NCBI GenBank assembly: GCA_030739975.1
Contig: JASLYC010000037.1
Span: forward strand, 1 to 36,124
Direction: 5' to 3'
Source of the DNA: Gammaproteobacteria bacterium
GTDB lineage: Bacteria; Pseudomonadota; Gammaproteobacteria; PS1; Pseudothioglobaceae
Length of the DNA stretch: 36,124 bases
Below the pieces are notes generated by a model. The model was given only the letters and a program-made list of their open reading frames with translations. It searched no databases and had not been told where the DNA came from. The position numbers and the translations under genes are program-made. Shown piece after piece: positions 16,414 through 30,424 of the stretch (the stretch's first letter is position 1; the number at the start of each line of letters is the position of its first letter).

Positions 16414-17958
16414 ATGCCGAGCATTCAGAATATAAATTTACCCGACATTGGTGATTTTGATGAAGTCGATATTATTGAGATTTTAGTATCAATTGGCGAC
16501 ATTATCAAAGAAAATGACAGCATAATAACGCTAGAGAGTGACAAAGCATCAATGGAGATACCCTCTCCTTTTGCAGGAAAGGTTGTTAAAATAAATGTAC
16601 AAATAGGCGACAGAATTAGTCAGGGCACTTCAATAATCACCCTTGAAACTGAAAATGATGATGCCAAAACCAATCAAAAAATAGAAACTAATAATCAAAC
16701 TCAAGAATCTAGCTCGATAATTACACCTGTAGTTGTACCAGATATTGGAGACTTCGATAAAGTTAACGTTATTGAAGTTTTGGTTAAGGTTGGAGATGAA
16801 ATAGATAAAGAACAGAGCATAATTACACTAGAGAGTGACAAAGCTTCGATGGAAATACCGTCACCCGACTCTGGGAAAGTGACCAGTCTTAATATAAGTG
16901 TTGGCGACAAGGTAGGGCTTGGCTCCTTGATACTTAACCTAGAGACCAACAATGTTGGTTCGCAGGTTGCTAGCACAATTATTGAAAGTTCTAGCAGCAC
17001 AACCAATAACGCGAATAACAATGCTCAACAAAATTCTTCATCAAACAATATTGATGAATCTGTCACAATTGCAGCCCCGGCTGACTCGCATGCATCTCCA
17101 TCAATTCGTAAGCTTGCTAGAGAGTTAGGCGCTGACCTTTCAAAAATTAATGGCACAGGAAGGAAAGGCAGGATACTTGATTCTGACCTAAAATCTTATG
17201 TTAAGCAGTTGATTGTATCTGGAGGAGGCGGTAGCTCTATACCTTCATTGCCGGTTATTGATTTCTCTAAATTTGGAGAAATTGAAACAAAGCCTTTATC
17301 GAGAATAAACAAACTCTCAGGTAAACACTTGTCATCATCTTGGCTCAATATCCCACACGTTACGCAGTTCGACGAAGTTAATATTGACCAGATGGAAGAA
17401 TTCAGACAGCAACAAAAATCAAGAGGAGTTAAATTGACTCCATTGGTTTTTATTATGAAGGCAGTTGTACAGGCATTAAAAAAACATCCTACATTTAACT
17501 CATCTTTGGACCAATCAAGCGAAAACCTGATATTAAAGAAGTACTTCAATATAGGTATTGCTGTTGACACACCTAACGGGCTTGTTGTGCCTGTTATTCG
17601 TGATGTTAACAAGAAATCACTGGTAGAACTAGCGACCGAACTGTCTGAAAAATCTCAGACTGCAAGAGAGGGCCTATTAAAGCCATCGGACTTTCAAGGT
17701 TCAGGGTTTACTATTACTAGCCTTGGAGGTATTGGAGGTACCCAATTTACCCCAATAGTAAATGCCCCTGAGGTTGCTATATTAGGTGTATCGCGCTCAC
17801 AGATAAAGCCTGTTTGGGATGGCGATAATTTTATTCCAACTTTAATGTTGCCTCTTGCACTGTCTTATGATCACAGAGTTATTGATGGGGTCCAGGGCGC
17901 TAGATTTATAAACGATCTTGGCAATATATTAAGAGATATTAGAGAGATTTTATTATGA
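16414..17958 (+). CDS. aceF: Pyruvate dehydrogenase E2, dihydrolipoyl acetyltransferase (AceF)
   Basis: The core of the pyruvate dehydrogenase complex, transferring acetyl groups to CoA. It has 514 aa. Two lipoyl domains carry the target lysines Lys44 and Lys143, each in ESDKASMEIPSP. A Ser/Asn/Gln-rich flexible linker spans about 181-215, a peripheral-subunit-binding domain about 227-263, and the catalytic domain about 290-514 with His487 and Asp491 in SYDHRVIDG. Pyruvate rather than 2-oxoglutarate specificity is inferred from the GDFDEVD-type lipoyl domains and two-domain layout. It overlaps lpd by ATGA. The E1 gene aceE is not upstream, which is unusual. Confidence 0.94.
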   Translation: MPSIQNINLPDIGDFDEVDIIEILVSIGDIIKENDSIITLESDKASMEIPSPFAGKVVKINVQIGDRISQGTSIITLETENDDAKTNQKIETNNQTQESSSIITPVVVPDIGDFDKVNVIEVLVKVGDEIDKEQSIITLESDKASMEIPSPDSGKVTSLNISVGDKVGLGSLILNLETNNVGSQVASTIIESSSSTTNNANNNAQQNSSSNNIDESVTIAAPADSHASPSIRKLARELGADLSKINGTGRKGRILDSDLKSYVKQLIVSGGGGSSIPSLPVIDFSKFGEIETKPLSRINKLSGKHLSSSWLNIPHVTQFDEVNIDQMEEFRQQQKSRGVKLTPLVFIMKAVVQALKKHPTFNSSLDQSSENLILKKYFNIGIAVDTPNGLVVPVIRDVNKKSLVELATELSEKSQTAREGLLKPSDFQGSGFTITSLGGIGGTQFTPIVNAPEVAILGVSRSQIKPVWDGDNFIPTLMLPLALSYDHRVIDGVQGARFINDLGNILRDIREILL

Positions 17959-19385
17959 TAAAGACTGAAGTTGCAGTAATTGGCTCAGGTCCTGGTGGCT
18001 ATACAGCTGCCTTTCGTGCAGCCGACCTAGGTAAGAAGGTTGTACTAATTGAGCGCTATGAGAGCCTAGGTGGAGTATGTCTAAACGTTGGCTGTATTCC
18101 TTCTAAGGCCCTATTACATACTGCACAAATAATTAATGAGGCTAGCGAATCTTCTAATATTGGAGTTACATTCAATGAACCCGATATCGATATTGATGCT
18201 ATCAGGCTAAATAAAAATAATACTGTTTCTAAACTAACATCTGGAATTAAGGCTTTAGCTAAAGCAAGAAAGGTGCAAATAATTTCTGGTTATGGCAAGT
18301 TTGCCTCGCCTAATAGCATTGTTGTTGATAGCGAAGGAAAGGAATCGGAATCAGAGTTAATTGAGTTCGAACAATGTATTATTGCTGCTGGATCAAGTGT
18401 AACTAAGATTCCTAGTTTCCCATTTGATGACCCAAGAGTAATGGACTCGACAGATGCACTCGAGCTAGAAAGCATACCTAAACGACTGCTGATAGTTGGT
18501 GGTGGCATCATTGGACTTGAGATGGCGACAGTATATAGTGCTCTTGGTAGTGAAATTACTGTAGTTGAATTAGCTGAACAACTAATTGCTAGTGCCGATA
18601 AAGATATTGTAAACCCTTTATTAAAGCGCATAAAGAAACAATATAGTAATATATTCCTTAGCACTAAGGTTACCAGCATTAAAGCTTTGAAGGGAGGTAT
18701 CAAGGTTGGTTTTGATGGCAAAGATGCGCCTGAATTTGATACTTTTGATAAGGTACTTGTGTCTGTAGGTCGTTCACCAAATGGGAAATTAATCGACGCT
18801 GATAAGGCAGGCATCAATGTTGATGATAGAGGTTTTATCTCGGTTGATAGGCAAATGAAAACTAATGTAAATAACATCTATGCCATTGGTGACATTGTTG
18901 GACAACCAATGCTAGCACATAAGGCTGTGCATGAAGCTAAAGTAGCTGCTGAGGTTATATGTGGCCATAAATCTGGCTTTGATGCATTAACAATTCCTTC
19001 AGTTGCATATACTGACCCAGAAGTTGCATGGACAGGAAAAACTGAAAAAGAAATTAAAGAACAAGGTATTGACTATGATAAGGGTGTCTTTCCTTGGGCT
19101 GCCTCTGGCAGAAGTCTGAGCATAGGTCGAAGTGAAGGCATCACTAAAGCTTTATTCGATAAAGAAACAGGTAGAATAATTGGGATGGGCATATGTGGGA
19201 CCAATGCGGGTGAACTTATTGCTGAGGCAACTCTTGCAATTGAGATGGGCTGTGATATGGCGGATATAGCTCTTACAGTTCATGCCCACCCTACACTCTC
19301 AGAAACCACCGCGTTCGCTGTTGAGATGGCAGAAGGAACTATAACTGACTTAATGCCCCCGAAAAAGAGAAAGGACAAATTATAA
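17955..19385 (+). CDS. lpdA: Dihydrolipoamide dehydrogenase (E3)
   Basis: An FAD/NAD flavoprotein that reoxidises the lipoyl groups of 2-oxoacid dehydrogenases. It has 476 aa. The FAD loop GSGPGG is at 10-15. The redox disulfide is Cys42/Cys47 in GGVCLNVGCIPSK, and the NAD loop GGGIIGLE lies near 176-183. The active-site His445 and Glu450 are in HAHPTLSE. The start overlaps the aceF stop by four bases, so E2 and E3 are cotranslated. It probably serves all lipoyl complexes of the cell. Confidence 0.96.
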   Translation: MIKTEVAVIGSGPGGYTAAFRAADLGKKVVLIERYESLGGVCLNVGCIPSKALLHTAQIINEASESSNIGVTFNEPDIDIDAIRLNKNNTVSKLTSGIKALAKARKVQIISGYGKFASPNSIVVDSEGKESESELIEFEQCIIAAGSSVTKIPSFPFDDPRVMDSTDALELESIPKRLLIVGGGIIGLEMATVYSALGSEITVVELAEQLIASADKDIVNPLLKRIKKQYSNIFLSTKVTSIKALKGGIKVGFDGKDAPEFDTFDKVLVSVGRSPNGKLIDADKAGINVDDRGFISVDRQMKTNVNNIYAIGDIVGQPMLAHKAVHEAKVAAEVICGHKSGFDALTIPSVAYTDPEVAWTGKTEKEIKEQGIDYDKGVFPWAASGRSLSIGRSEGITKALFDKETGRIIGMGICGTNAGELIAEATLAIEMGCDMADIALTVHAHPTLSETTAFAVEMAEGTITDLMPPKKRKDKL

Positions 19386-19395
19386 AAATATATAA

Positions 19396-19500
19396 ATGGG
19401 AATTATGGAAAAAGATATTAAAAATATTAAAGATCAAGTAGGTCTTATATGGTTAACAATGGTAGGCTATATAATATATCTAGAATTTTTTAAAGGATAA
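19396..19500 (+). CDS. Possible small single-pass membrane peptide
   Basis: An open frame of 34 codons from ATG 19396, or 31 codons from the internal ATG at 19405, ends in TAA at 19500. The N-terminal half is charged (EKDIKNIKDQ) and the C-terminal half is hydrophobic (VGLIWLTMVGYIIYLEFF), the pattern of a one-pass membrane peptide. It fills the 118-bp spacer between lpd and the methyltransferase gene, and its last codons contain the AAAGGA ribosome site of that gene, so coupling is possible. GGGA lies very close before the second ATG. I do not recognise a family. It could be chance. Confidence 0.4.
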   Translation: MGIMEKDIKNIKDQVGLIWLTMVGYIIYLEFFKG

Positions 19501-19503
19501 CTG

Positions 19504-20154
19504 ATGGATATTTTACAAGCACGAAATAATACTATTGAACAGCAAGTTCGGCCATGGGGCGGACTGAACAATGAAGCAAATGAGTTCTTAAAAGAAATAT
19601 GTCGAGAAAATTTTGTACCAGAGAAATACAAAAAACTTGCTTTTGCTGATATAGAGATACCACTAAACTCTACTGCTAAAATGTTAAGCCCAAAGCTTGA
19701 AGGAAGAATACTTGATATAGTAAATATTCAAAAAGACGAGGATGTTCTGCAGGTGGGTACTGGTAGTGGGTACCTTACAGCAGTGATTTCAAAGCTAGCT
19801 AAATCAGTCTCTACAATAGAAATAGATGAAGAGCTTAGCAATTCAGCTCAACAACGAGTCCAATCTCTAGATATTAATAATGTTCAATTTATTAATACAG
19901 ATTTTAGAGACTGGAGGACAACAAATTTTTTTGATATCGTAATTATTGAAGCTTCTGTGCCAAAGATATACAATAGCTATTTACATCTACTAAAGAAAAA
20001 TGGCAGGTTATTCATTGTCGAAGGGGAAGGCAAGGCTATGAGCGCAAAGCTAATTACTCGAAAGAGTGAAAACAATTGGGAAAGCAAGTCATTATTTGAA
20101 GTACATATTGATTCATTAATTGGTTCACAACTACCCCAAAAATTTGAATTTTAA
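19504..20154 (+). CDS. Divergent protein-L-isoaspartate O-methyltransferase family protein
   Basis: A 216-aa class I SAM-dependent methyltransferase of the PCMT family. VLQVGTGSGYL (81-91) is the SAM-binding loop, and IEIDEEL follows as the acidic strand. The segment that should read as the catalytic PI-GQTIS motif is altered to IPLNSTAKMLSP (52-63). The protein is therefore one of the divergent paralogues and may not repair isoaspartate. A strong AAAGGA precedes ATG 19504. It is followed after 9 bp by the RND exporter. In other proteobacteria such paralogues often lie beside export genes; that is general knowledge, not seen here beyond the one neighbour. Confidence 0.8.
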   Translation: MDILQARNNTIEQQVRPWGGLNNEANEFLKEICRENFVPEKYKKLAFADIEIPLNSTAKMLSPKLEGRILDIVNIQKDEDVLQVGTGSGYLTAVISKLAKSVSTIEIDEELSNSAQQRVQSLDINNVQFINTDFRDWRTTNFFDIVIIEASVPKIYNSYLHLLKKNGRLFIVEGEGKAMSAKLITRKSENNWESKSLFEVHIDSLIGSQLPQKFEF

Positions 20155-20163
20155 ATAGCAATT

Positions 20164-22545
20164 ATGGCTGCTCATAAGCTTATCGATCTAATTATGAGTA
20201 AACCAAAACAAGGCATTACTTTACTTTGCCTTGTTTTAGTGTTTTTTGTTGCACAAATTCCCAATTTTCAGTTAGATGCATCTTCAGACTCACTAGTTCT
20301 AGAGGGTGATAAAAATCTCCGATTCTATCAAAGCATAAAAAAAGATTTTGGTACCGATGATTCATTAATTATTAGCTATCAAATTCAAAGCAACTTGCTC
20401 GATGAAGATAATTTAACTCATTTAAGGAGCTTTAGAGATGAGTTGAGGAGTGTTAGCGGTATTCAATCAGTTACAACTATACTGGATGTACCTTTGTTCA
20501 GATCTCCGCCAATAGACTTAACAGATCTTGCCTCATCAGACATAAGCATAGATAAAGGCAATGCAGATTTATTGCTGGCAAATTCAGAATTCACATCTTC
20601 CCCACTATATGCCAACAACCTTGTAAGCCTAGATGGCAAAACAACTGCCATCTTAATCTCATTAAATGAAAATCATGCATTTAAGGAGCTTAAAGAAAAG
20701 CGCGACGATATGCGTGCACAAAAAGCTATCGATAATTTGTCAAAGAATGACACAAACAAACTAAATGCTATAGAAAAAAAGGTCTTAATAAATTCAAATA
20801 TTGAAAATAAATTGCAAGCCAAAACTATAGCAGAAATACGCTCTGTAATTGACAAATATAGGGCCAATGCCACCCTTTTCTTGGGCGGACTACCTATGAT
20901 ATCCAATGATATTATTGCATACATAGGAAATGATTTAATTGTCTTTAGTATAGCTGTACTTGGACTTATGATAGTTGTCCTTGCTATGATATTTAAATCA
21001 ATACGTTGGGTTCTAATGCCTATAGGGATCAGTGTTTCTGGGGCATTAATAATGACAGGTATTTTGGCATTTTTGGGGTGGAAAGTAACAGTAATATCAA
21101 GTAACTTTTTTTCTTTGTTGTTAGTTATGACACTGTCAGTAACAATACACCTTGTGGTGCGTTATCGTGAATTAGCACAAAATAAAACTGAGCTAGAATC
21201 AAAACAATTAATTAAAGAAACACTAATACAAATGTTTAAACCATGTCTTTTTACTACATTAACAACATTTACGGCTTTTAGTTCTTTACTTATTTCTGGC
21301 ATAAGGCCGGTTATTGATTTTGGATGGATGATGTCTATAGGTGTTACGATAGCGCTTGTGTTGTCATTTTTAGCTTTCCCTATGATAATGAGTTTAATAC
21401 CAAAAGCTAAAGTAATTAGGCATAAAACTGAGCTAAGTACTACATACAATTTAGCTAAATTTAGCGAAAAATTTGGCAACCAATTGATTGTAGTTTTGTC
21501 TATTCTTGTTATCGTTTCTTTTTACGGCATTAGTAAACTGAGTGTTGAGAATCGCTTTATAGATTACTTTAAACAAGACACTGAAATCAATCAAGGGCTA
21601 AGTTCAATCGATAATAACCTTGGAGGCACAATACCTCTTGAAATTGTGTTTGACGATCTGGCAGAGGACTACTGGTACGATGAAGAGTTAAGAGATGATA
21701 TAAACAATATCCACCAATATATTGAAGGTTTGGATGAAACTGGAAAGGTTCTTTCTATAGATACCTTAATGCAAATATTGACTCAGGCTAATGACAATGA
21801 ACCATTAAGTGGATTCTTCTTAAATGTTGTTAAGGCTCAGATGCCTGAAAGCGCAAAAAACTACGTATTTTATCCATACCTGTCTGAAGATAGTGGAAGG
21901 TTAAGAATTGTTGCTAGAATTAAAGAGACCAACAAAAACTTAAGGCGCGGTGAACTAATAAACCAAATTAAAAACTATATCGCTGATAATTTTGGATTTA
22001 ATGAAAAAAACTTCCATATGAGTGGCATGTTAGTTTTGTACAATAATATGCTTCAAAGTCTATTCAATTCCCAAATAAAAACAATCATTGTTGTTTTTGC
22101 TATTATATTTGTTATGTTTTTATTTATATTTAAATCGTTAAGCTTATCTGTACTTGCTTTAATTCCTAACACCCTTCCTTCATTATTTATCCTTGGAATT
22201 ATGGGAATTTTTAACATACCTCTTGATCTAATGACAATAACAATTGCCGCTATCGCAATTGGCATAGGTGTTGACAATGCTATTCACTATATTCATAGAT
22301 ACAAGATTGAATTTATTAAAGACAATGACTACATTGCCACTATGTACCGATCACACGGAAGCATTGGTTTAGCAATGTTCTACACCTCCATTACTGTGGC
22401 TCTTGGATTCCTAATTTTATCCCTATCGAACTTTATTCCTAGCATTTATTTTGGTTTTTTTACAGCTACTGCAATGCTAAGTGCCCTTATAGCAAATCTA
22501 ACCCTGTTACCAAAATTACTCATTATGTTTAGACCGAAAATATAA
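20164..22545 (+). CDS. RND-superfamily exporter, MMPL/SSD type
   Basis: A 793-aa inner-membrane transporter of the MMPL-like RND group, probably proton-driven. One membrane helix at about 17-31 is followed by a periplasmic domain (about 32-245), then a bundle of helices at about 250-415, another single helix near 443-462 and a second periplasmic domain to about 635. A final bundle of five reaches the end. The two halves form the expected internal duplication, and GVDNAIHYIHR in the second half is a typical acidic site. Hydrophobic molecules such as lipids are the usual cargo. No membrane-fusion or outer-membrane partner is adjacent, so the substrate is unknown. Confidence 0.88.
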   Translation: MAAHKLIDLIMSKPKQGITLLCLVLVFFVAQIPNFQLDASSDSLVLEGDKNLRFYQSIKKDFGTDDSLIISYQIQSNLLDEDNLTHLRSFRDELRSVSGIQSVTTILDVPLFRSPPIDLTDLASSDISIDKGNADLLLANSEFTSSPLYANNLVSLDGKTTAILISLNENHAFKELKEKRDDMRAQKAIDNLSKNDTNKLNAIEKKVLINSNIENKLQAKTIAEIRSVIDKYRANATLFLGGLPMISNDIIAYIGNDLIVFSIAVLGLMIVVLAMIFKSIRWVLMPIGISVSGALIMTGILAFLGWKVTVISSNFFSLLLVMTLSVTIHLVVRYRELAQNKTELESKQLIKETLIQMFKPCLFTTLTTFTAFSSLLISGIRPVIDFGWMMSIGVTIALVLSFLAFPMIMSLIPKAKVIRHKTELSTTYNLAKFSEKFGNQLIVVLSILVIVSFYGISKLSVENRFIDYFKQDTEINQGLSSIDNNLGGTIPLEIVFDDLAEDYWYDEELRDDINNIHQYIEGLDETGKVLSIDTLMQILTQANDNEPLSGFFLNVVKAQMPESAKNYVFYPYLSEDSGRLRIVARIKETNKNLRRGELINQIKNYIADNFGFNEKNFHMSGMLVLYNNMLQSLFNSQIKTIIVVFAIIFVMFLFIFKSLSLSVLALIPNTLPSLFILGIMGIFNIPLDLMTITIAAIAIGIGVDNAIHYIHRYKIEFIKDNDYIATMYRSHGSIGLAMFYTSITVALGFLILSLSNFIPSIYFGFFTATAMLSALIANLTLLPKLLIMFRPKI

Positions 22546-30165: not shown

Positions 30166-30171
30166 ATTTGT

Positions 30172-30345
30172 ATCTGTTGTGTTCGTGATTGGTTATATTC
30201 CCTGAGCCGATTAAAAACAACATTAGGAAATGAGATAGCTGACTATTGTGCAAGCCCGCCTTGAAGTGGGAAACCTACGGGAGGCTTCGAAATTCCGCCT
30301 TGAGCCAGATGGTTTCAGGTTGCTTCCAACACGGCACAATGGACT
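30172..30345 (+). ncRNA. ssrS: 6S RNA (SsrS)
   Basis: A regulatory RNA that mimics an open promoter and binds sigma-70 RNA polymerase. The 5' strand of the central bubble, CCCTGAGCCGA (30200-30210), is identical to the E. coli hallmark. The 3' side reads CCGCCTTGAGCC (30295-30306) followed by a TTTCAGG-type stem, also like E. coli. The ends pair: TTGTG and GTG in 30177-30187 against CACGGCACAA (30330-30339). The 5-formyl-THF cyclo-ligase gene lies about 80 bp downstream, the well-known ssrS-ygfA order. The exact ends are estimates; about 174 nt is slightly below the usual 180-190. Confidence 0.93.
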
Positions 30346-30424
30346 TTTATCAAGCATTTCTATTTACCTCTATTTCTGTATTTCAACTATAATAATTTAC
30401 CTAAATCGTATCTTAATTTAATTA

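Follow-up and report, generated by a model that had tools for sequence, protein, structure and literature searches.

A short frame between lpd and a methyltransferase gene

The spacer between lpd and the following PCMT-family gene in one gammaproteobacterium of the family Pseudothioglobaceae (genome G000) raises the question of whether the small open reading frame within it is a gene, and, if so, how it came to this place and what its product could do. The locus was considered within a window of 36,124 nucleotides, i.e., the whole stretch of DNA analyzed (contig JASLYC010000037.1), and its features are listed in Table 1. The likely answer is that the frame is a genuine 31-codon gene of a single-pass inner-membrane protein, which was acquired from, or along with, a different genus of the family as an independent segment of about 118 nt (leader and frame) and now fills the lpd–PCMT junction.

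Table 1. Features of the lpd–PCMT junction and adjacent genes (window coordinates)
Feature	Position	Strand	Remarks
lpd (dihydrolipoyl dehydrogenase), upstream neighbor	17955..19385	+	C-terminus ...KRKDKL longer than in relatives
Leader common to copies in genus g5, begins at the lpd stop codon	19383..19404	+	Matches G010 at 18 of 22 bases
Alternative in-frame upstream start (MGI), probably unused	19396..19404	+	No ATG here in three other short-form genomes
CDS of the 31-aa single-helix membrane protein, ATG to TAA	19405..19500	+	Homologs, silent-only changes, helix model
AAAGGA, last two codons (K, G), Shine-Dalgarno-like site of the PCMT gene	19492..19497	+	Read from the sequence; 6 nt before the PCMT ATG
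PCMT-fold methyltransferase, downstream neighbor	19504..20154	+	PF01135, E 3.3e-28
Gene presumed to be an RND/MMPL-type exporter	20164..22545	+	Follows PCMT in peptide-free relatives

The preliminary description placed between lpd and the PCMT gene a frame nearly filling the spacer, and this frame is present as stated: it has 34 codons (19396..19500, + strand) and lies between the lpd stop codon (19385) and the PCMT start codon (ATG 19504). The spacer is 118 nt long (121 in the gap count across relatives), with a G+C content of 22%. Of the suggested length of 31 to 34 residues, the 31-residue form, read from the conserved ATG at 19405, was retained; the start at 19396 that would give 34 residues is not conserved. 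ATG 19405 is thus most likely the start, and the product probably has 31 residues, since G010, G018 and G024 have no ATG at the position corresponding to 19396. The charged N-terminus and hydrophobic C-terminus described earlier were also recovered, with a mean hydropathy of 1.79 over an 18-residue hydrophobic stretch (residues 12–29) and an AlphaFold2 model of the 31-residue protein consisting of one helix (residues 2–29, mean pLDDT 95).

Evidence for coding and selection

A frame of this size could arise by chance or through an assembly artefact. After dinucleotide shuffling of the spacer, an ATG frame of at least 31 codons was found on the + strand in 21 of 5000 sequences; for at least 34 codons the figure was 8 of 5000. 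Such a frame is uncommon, but this is not decisive by itself given the number of spacers per genome. The G000 assembly is also fragmented (95 contigs, 87% complete). However, the piece fills the junction of two intact genes, its DNA differs from that of every other copy found, and homologs exist with silent-only change. A chance frame was rejected on account of these homologs, and chance or artefact together are considered highly improbable.

The decisive evidence that the frame is real is comparative. An identical 31-residue protein is encoded in G010, which belongs to another genus (g5) of the same family, and the DNA differs at 6 of 93 positions, all of them synonymous. This agrees with the earlier suggestion of a missed membrane peptide with synonymous-biased change, as all six codon differences are silent. 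Six random changes left the protein intact in none of 20,000 trials and, with transition bias, in 11 of 100,000. Protein identity to the short forms is 100% in G010, 90% in G018 and 87% in G024.

Constraint is also visible in the eight long forms (51 residues), in which pN is lower than pS in 28 of 28 pairs (means 0.24 and 0.62); G033 (47 residues, deletion) and the degraded copies of G007, G017 and G019 were left out of these pairs. It is strongest in the C-terminal 21 codons, i.e., the membrane half (pN 0.16 vs. pS 0.58). Intact copies make up 13 of the 16 found; of the others, the G007 copy is cut at its 5′ side, the G017 frame is broken, and that of G019 has neither the usual start nor the final lysine. 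Judged from these comparisons, the 31-codon frame is a genuine coding gene under purifying selection.

A family of small membrane proteins in genus g5

A genome-wide protein search (E up to 10) found the peptide in 16 of 83 genomes of the family, namely G000 and 15 genomes of genus g5. The g5 members are single-helix proteins of 31–51 residues and form a family without a name. Nine columns are invariant in alignment A1 (12 rows), and the motif of the membrane half, D-x-x-G-(L/V/M)-I-W-(L/I)-...-Y-I-x-Y-x-E-F-x-K, is present in the G000 peptide (profile E 6.4e-17). The G000 protein thus shares the membrane half with the g5 family and is 100–87% identical to the short forms located before fadE; it differs in its position at the lpd–PCMT junction, where the g5 copies precede fadE, DUF4389 or Ldh genes. 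It also lacks the roughly 20 extra N-terminal residues of the long forms, which resemble coiled coils; matches of the profile's N-terminal half to designed coiled coils and GCN4 are weak (best E 0.00012). One further HMM match, in G054, lies inside a 306-codon frame and was treated as chance.

No match to the peptide above cut-off was obtained in Pfam or NCBIfam, none in PADLOC, none in Rfam at E up to 1, and none in a fold search of the PDB, as expected for a lone helix. Among 369 genomes of a class sample and 398 of a phylum sample, only the own genome matched; the class sample held, among the genomes listed, four of Pseudothioglobaceae including the own one. PHROGs gave weak matches only, the best being holin phrog_689 (E 0.0024), and the similarity to XhlA (PF10779) is 12.8 bits against a Pfam cut-off of 34.7 (E 0.14). 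In XhlA and such holins, a coiled-coil-like helix leads into a single C-terminal membrane helix, which is the point of likeness in these weak matches; the difference is that the score is far under the Pfam cut-off and the peptide has no phage context. An origin in a phage, plasmid or virus was rejected, as phage records (50,697), plasmids and viral contigs contained no match.

The peptide could be a membrane-active selfish element of the type I toxin-like or holin-like kind, spreading as a minimal gene and kept because losing an attached antisense or other control would be harmful. A small, single-helix product that is taxonomically confined and moves separately is in keeping with this, as are the weak profile similarities to phrog_689 and XhlA; the 31-residue protein qualifies as a small hydrophobic single-helix peptide, a feature of type I toxins. 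Toxins such as TimP and those of the Fst type (for Fst, according to an account in PMC10903887) are likewise tiny membrane peptides with a single helix that normal annotation leaves out. In contrast to them, the peptide is embedded in sense operons, where a partner gene would not fit. One minus-strand promoter-like site is located at 19430-19402, but such sites are at chance level (1 found; 1.8 ± 1.5 in shuffles), so that a candidate antisense RNA does not rise above chance, and Rfam adds no match. The peptide is absent from the phage, plasmid and viral collections, and the degraded copies of G007, G017 and G019 show that loss is possible. This main rival is regarded as unlikely, and the reading as an accessory single-pass membrane protein is preferred.

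The lpd–PCMT junction in relatives

Adjacent lpd–PCMT pairs are found in 59 genomes of the family, with a gap of 3–18 nt in 57 of them, 60 nt in G056 and 121 nt in G000. This count drew on the 74 of 83 genomes in which PCMT was matched over nearly its full length; no match was obtained in G001, and weak (G004, G020, G025, G027, G028, G029) or partial (G048, G079) matches were left out. Pairs split between contigs or strands (ten) and pairs separated by more than 1 kb (five) are not adjacent, and second copies in G011 were not used. Both lpd and PCMT are missing from the assembly of G001, the nearest genome of the same genus. The peptide search across the 83 genomes places the peptide at this junction in G000 only, and the junction of G010 itself is peptide-free (9 nt). 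A conserved frame in the same spacer, proposed earlier as a check, is absent from the 58 other adjacent pairs. Such a comparison would call the peptide unconserved, as its conservation becomes apparent only in the genome-wide peptide search.

The neighbors show peculiarities of their own. The lpd product ends in ...PPKKRKDKL (19360-19385), several residues past its orthologs, which finish near PPKKR/K; this extension may come from insertion at the lpd stop codon. The PCMT-family protein falls under the NCBIfam equivalog cut-offs for isoaspartyl methyltransferase (best 125.7 vs. 188 bits) and may not be a true isoaspartyl methyltransferase; weaker second methyltransferase matches occur in several relatives. 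A 6S RNA is located at 30168-30349 of the window (RF00013, 79.5 bits).

The gene after PCMT, presumed from the preliminary description to be an RND/MMPL-type exporter, suggested another function. AcrZ is a small single-helix protein of an RND exporter, and the peptide, a single-helix protein encoded two genes upstream of the presumed exporter, could be an AcrZ-like partner; a tie to the methyltransferase and the exporter had been guessed earlier from the position of the frame. Among 29 peptide-free PCMT loci examined (L003–L031, a subset of the PCMT genomes), however, 28 show the same RND gene immediately behind PCMT and in its orientation; in the 29th, the contig ends 134 nt after PCMT. The other 15 carriers hold the peptide in unrelated operons, so that it differs from AcrZ in not being tied to an exporter locus across relatives. 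The guess is largely refuted by this, and an exporter partnership is hardly probable.

Sites of the peptide in other genomes

The 16 carriers hold the peptide at several kinds of sites: nine before a DUF4389 gene, three before an acyl-CoA dehydrogenase gene (fadE; G010, G018, G024), two before a gene that is presumably an Ldh-type dehydrogenase gene (G011, G007), one beside a DUF4389-gene remnant (G019) and one between lpd and PCMT. DUF4389 appears in a published gene table. The usual order at the DUF4389 site is membrane protein, XRE regulator, 63-residue protein, peptide and DUF4389 protein. This g5 operon is modular (L036:592-2176 and similar loci), with the 63-residue protein and the peptide optional and middle genes that come and go. 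In G028, G010, G025 and G006, no gene separates the DUF4389 gene from the XRE gene upstream; G010 therefore combines a peptide-free operon with a short peptide at another site.

Peptide-free versions exist for fadE as well: its leader is empty in G007 and G011, whose FadE proteins are 97% and 95% identical to that of G018, and the peptide occupies this site in 3 of the 23 genomes seen. For the Ldh site, the gap between uxaA and the Ldh gene is 36 nt in G031 vs. 262 nt in G011 and 105 nt in G007; uxaA is absent from the flank in the remaining 15 of 18 loci. This copy could partly reflect local rearrangement, and its relocation is counted as weaker because the Ldh gene lies 8–10 kb from the DUF4389-operon copy in G008, G009, G013, G017 and G020. 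In G011, a terminator-like hairpin and a subsequent T-rich run separate uxaA from the peptide (L148:1211-1250, minus strand), and this copy may have its own promoter.

The G000 peptide is outside the home operon with XRE and DUF4389 genes, and no DUF4389 match was found in G000 at E 1e-10. The short forms of G010, G018 and G024 are also located elsewhere, so the home operon was not treated as defining the g5 family.

Probable transfer between genera and fit into the operon

Divergence of the peptide between G000 and G010 (dS 0.48, dN 0) is much lower than that of lpd (dS 2.35) or PCMT (dS 2.88). Windows of 31 codons with at most 6 differences between these genomes number 0 of 437 in lpd and 0 of 186 in PCMT, the best having 14 and 30 differences. 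The leader identity to G010 given in Table 1 was reached by 5 of 20,000 shuffles. Homology to the g5 copies extends from about 22 nt before the ATG to the stop codon, so that nearly the whole spacer would be the imported piece, the leader and frame having arrived together from, or with, another genus. In a tree of 66 nt, the four short forms join (support 74), and the order within them, including the place of G000, has a support of 30; an origin of the peptide gene in g5 would be the parsimonious one. On these comparisons, the peptide gene is an addition at the lpd–PCMT junction, a separately moving small gene with family members at several operon junctions that are unrelated to one another.

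A target duplication flanking the insert was considered, as ATGGGAATT at 19396 resembles ATGGATATT at 19504; this was dropped, ATGGGAATT being alignable with the g5 leader. The fadE of G000 itself (G000:C87:39061-40518, L116) shares 72% identity with the g5 type, against only about 45% for those of other genera of the family, which suggests further exchange with g5.

Every copy except the G019 remnant directly precedes a start codon on the same strand. The short forms before fadE end in AAAGGG-TAGT-ATG or AAAGGT-TAGT-ATG, and in all short forms AAA GGN precedes the next start by 4 to 6 nt, made up of just the stop codon and 1–3 further nt. The last codons would therefore provide the ribosome site of the next gene. 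In G000, the peptide gene would share a transcript with lpd and PCMT, and translation of PCMT would now depend on the AAAGGA within the last codons, a dependence proposed to have made the insertion tolerated.

The same arrangement could mean that the act of translation matters and not the peptide, i.e., that the frame is a leader coupling or timing translation of the next gene. Its place before same-strand starts and the Shine-Dalgarno-like site in the last codons of the short forms favor such a role, but the amino acids are strictly kept between G000 and G010 while codons vary, and the nine columns are invariant in 12 rows. A pure coupling leader does not need such residue conservation and is considered improbable. 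A further, rather unlikely possibility is a plug-in cassette of about 120 nt, consisting of leader, frame and a 3′ end supplying the ribosome site of the next gene, which would insert just before start codons in unrelated operons, across genera and without a transposase, and be expressed from the host operon.

Possible role and significance

The product of this gene could be an accessory protein of the membrane, where it would bind or modulate a larger membrane protein; this proposal is tentative and held with low confidence. In the long forms, the N-terminal coiled coil would oligomerize the protein. The home operon, with a small multi-helix-like membrane protein, XRE regulator, 63-residue protein and DUF4389 membrane protein, suggests a function in membrane state rather than in metabolism. 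The single helix of the model would fit many functions.

Small single-helix membrane proteins are a kind already known, and what is noteworthy here is that the gene moved singly. A gene of 31 codons can pass between genera by itself and take up a place at a core-operon junction with its protein unchanged. Such genes would be lost in scans that demand a conserved frame at one and the same spacer. The four kinds of junctions, each with peptide-free versions in relatives, offer a tractable system for studying the movement of single small genes and the reasons for their retention.
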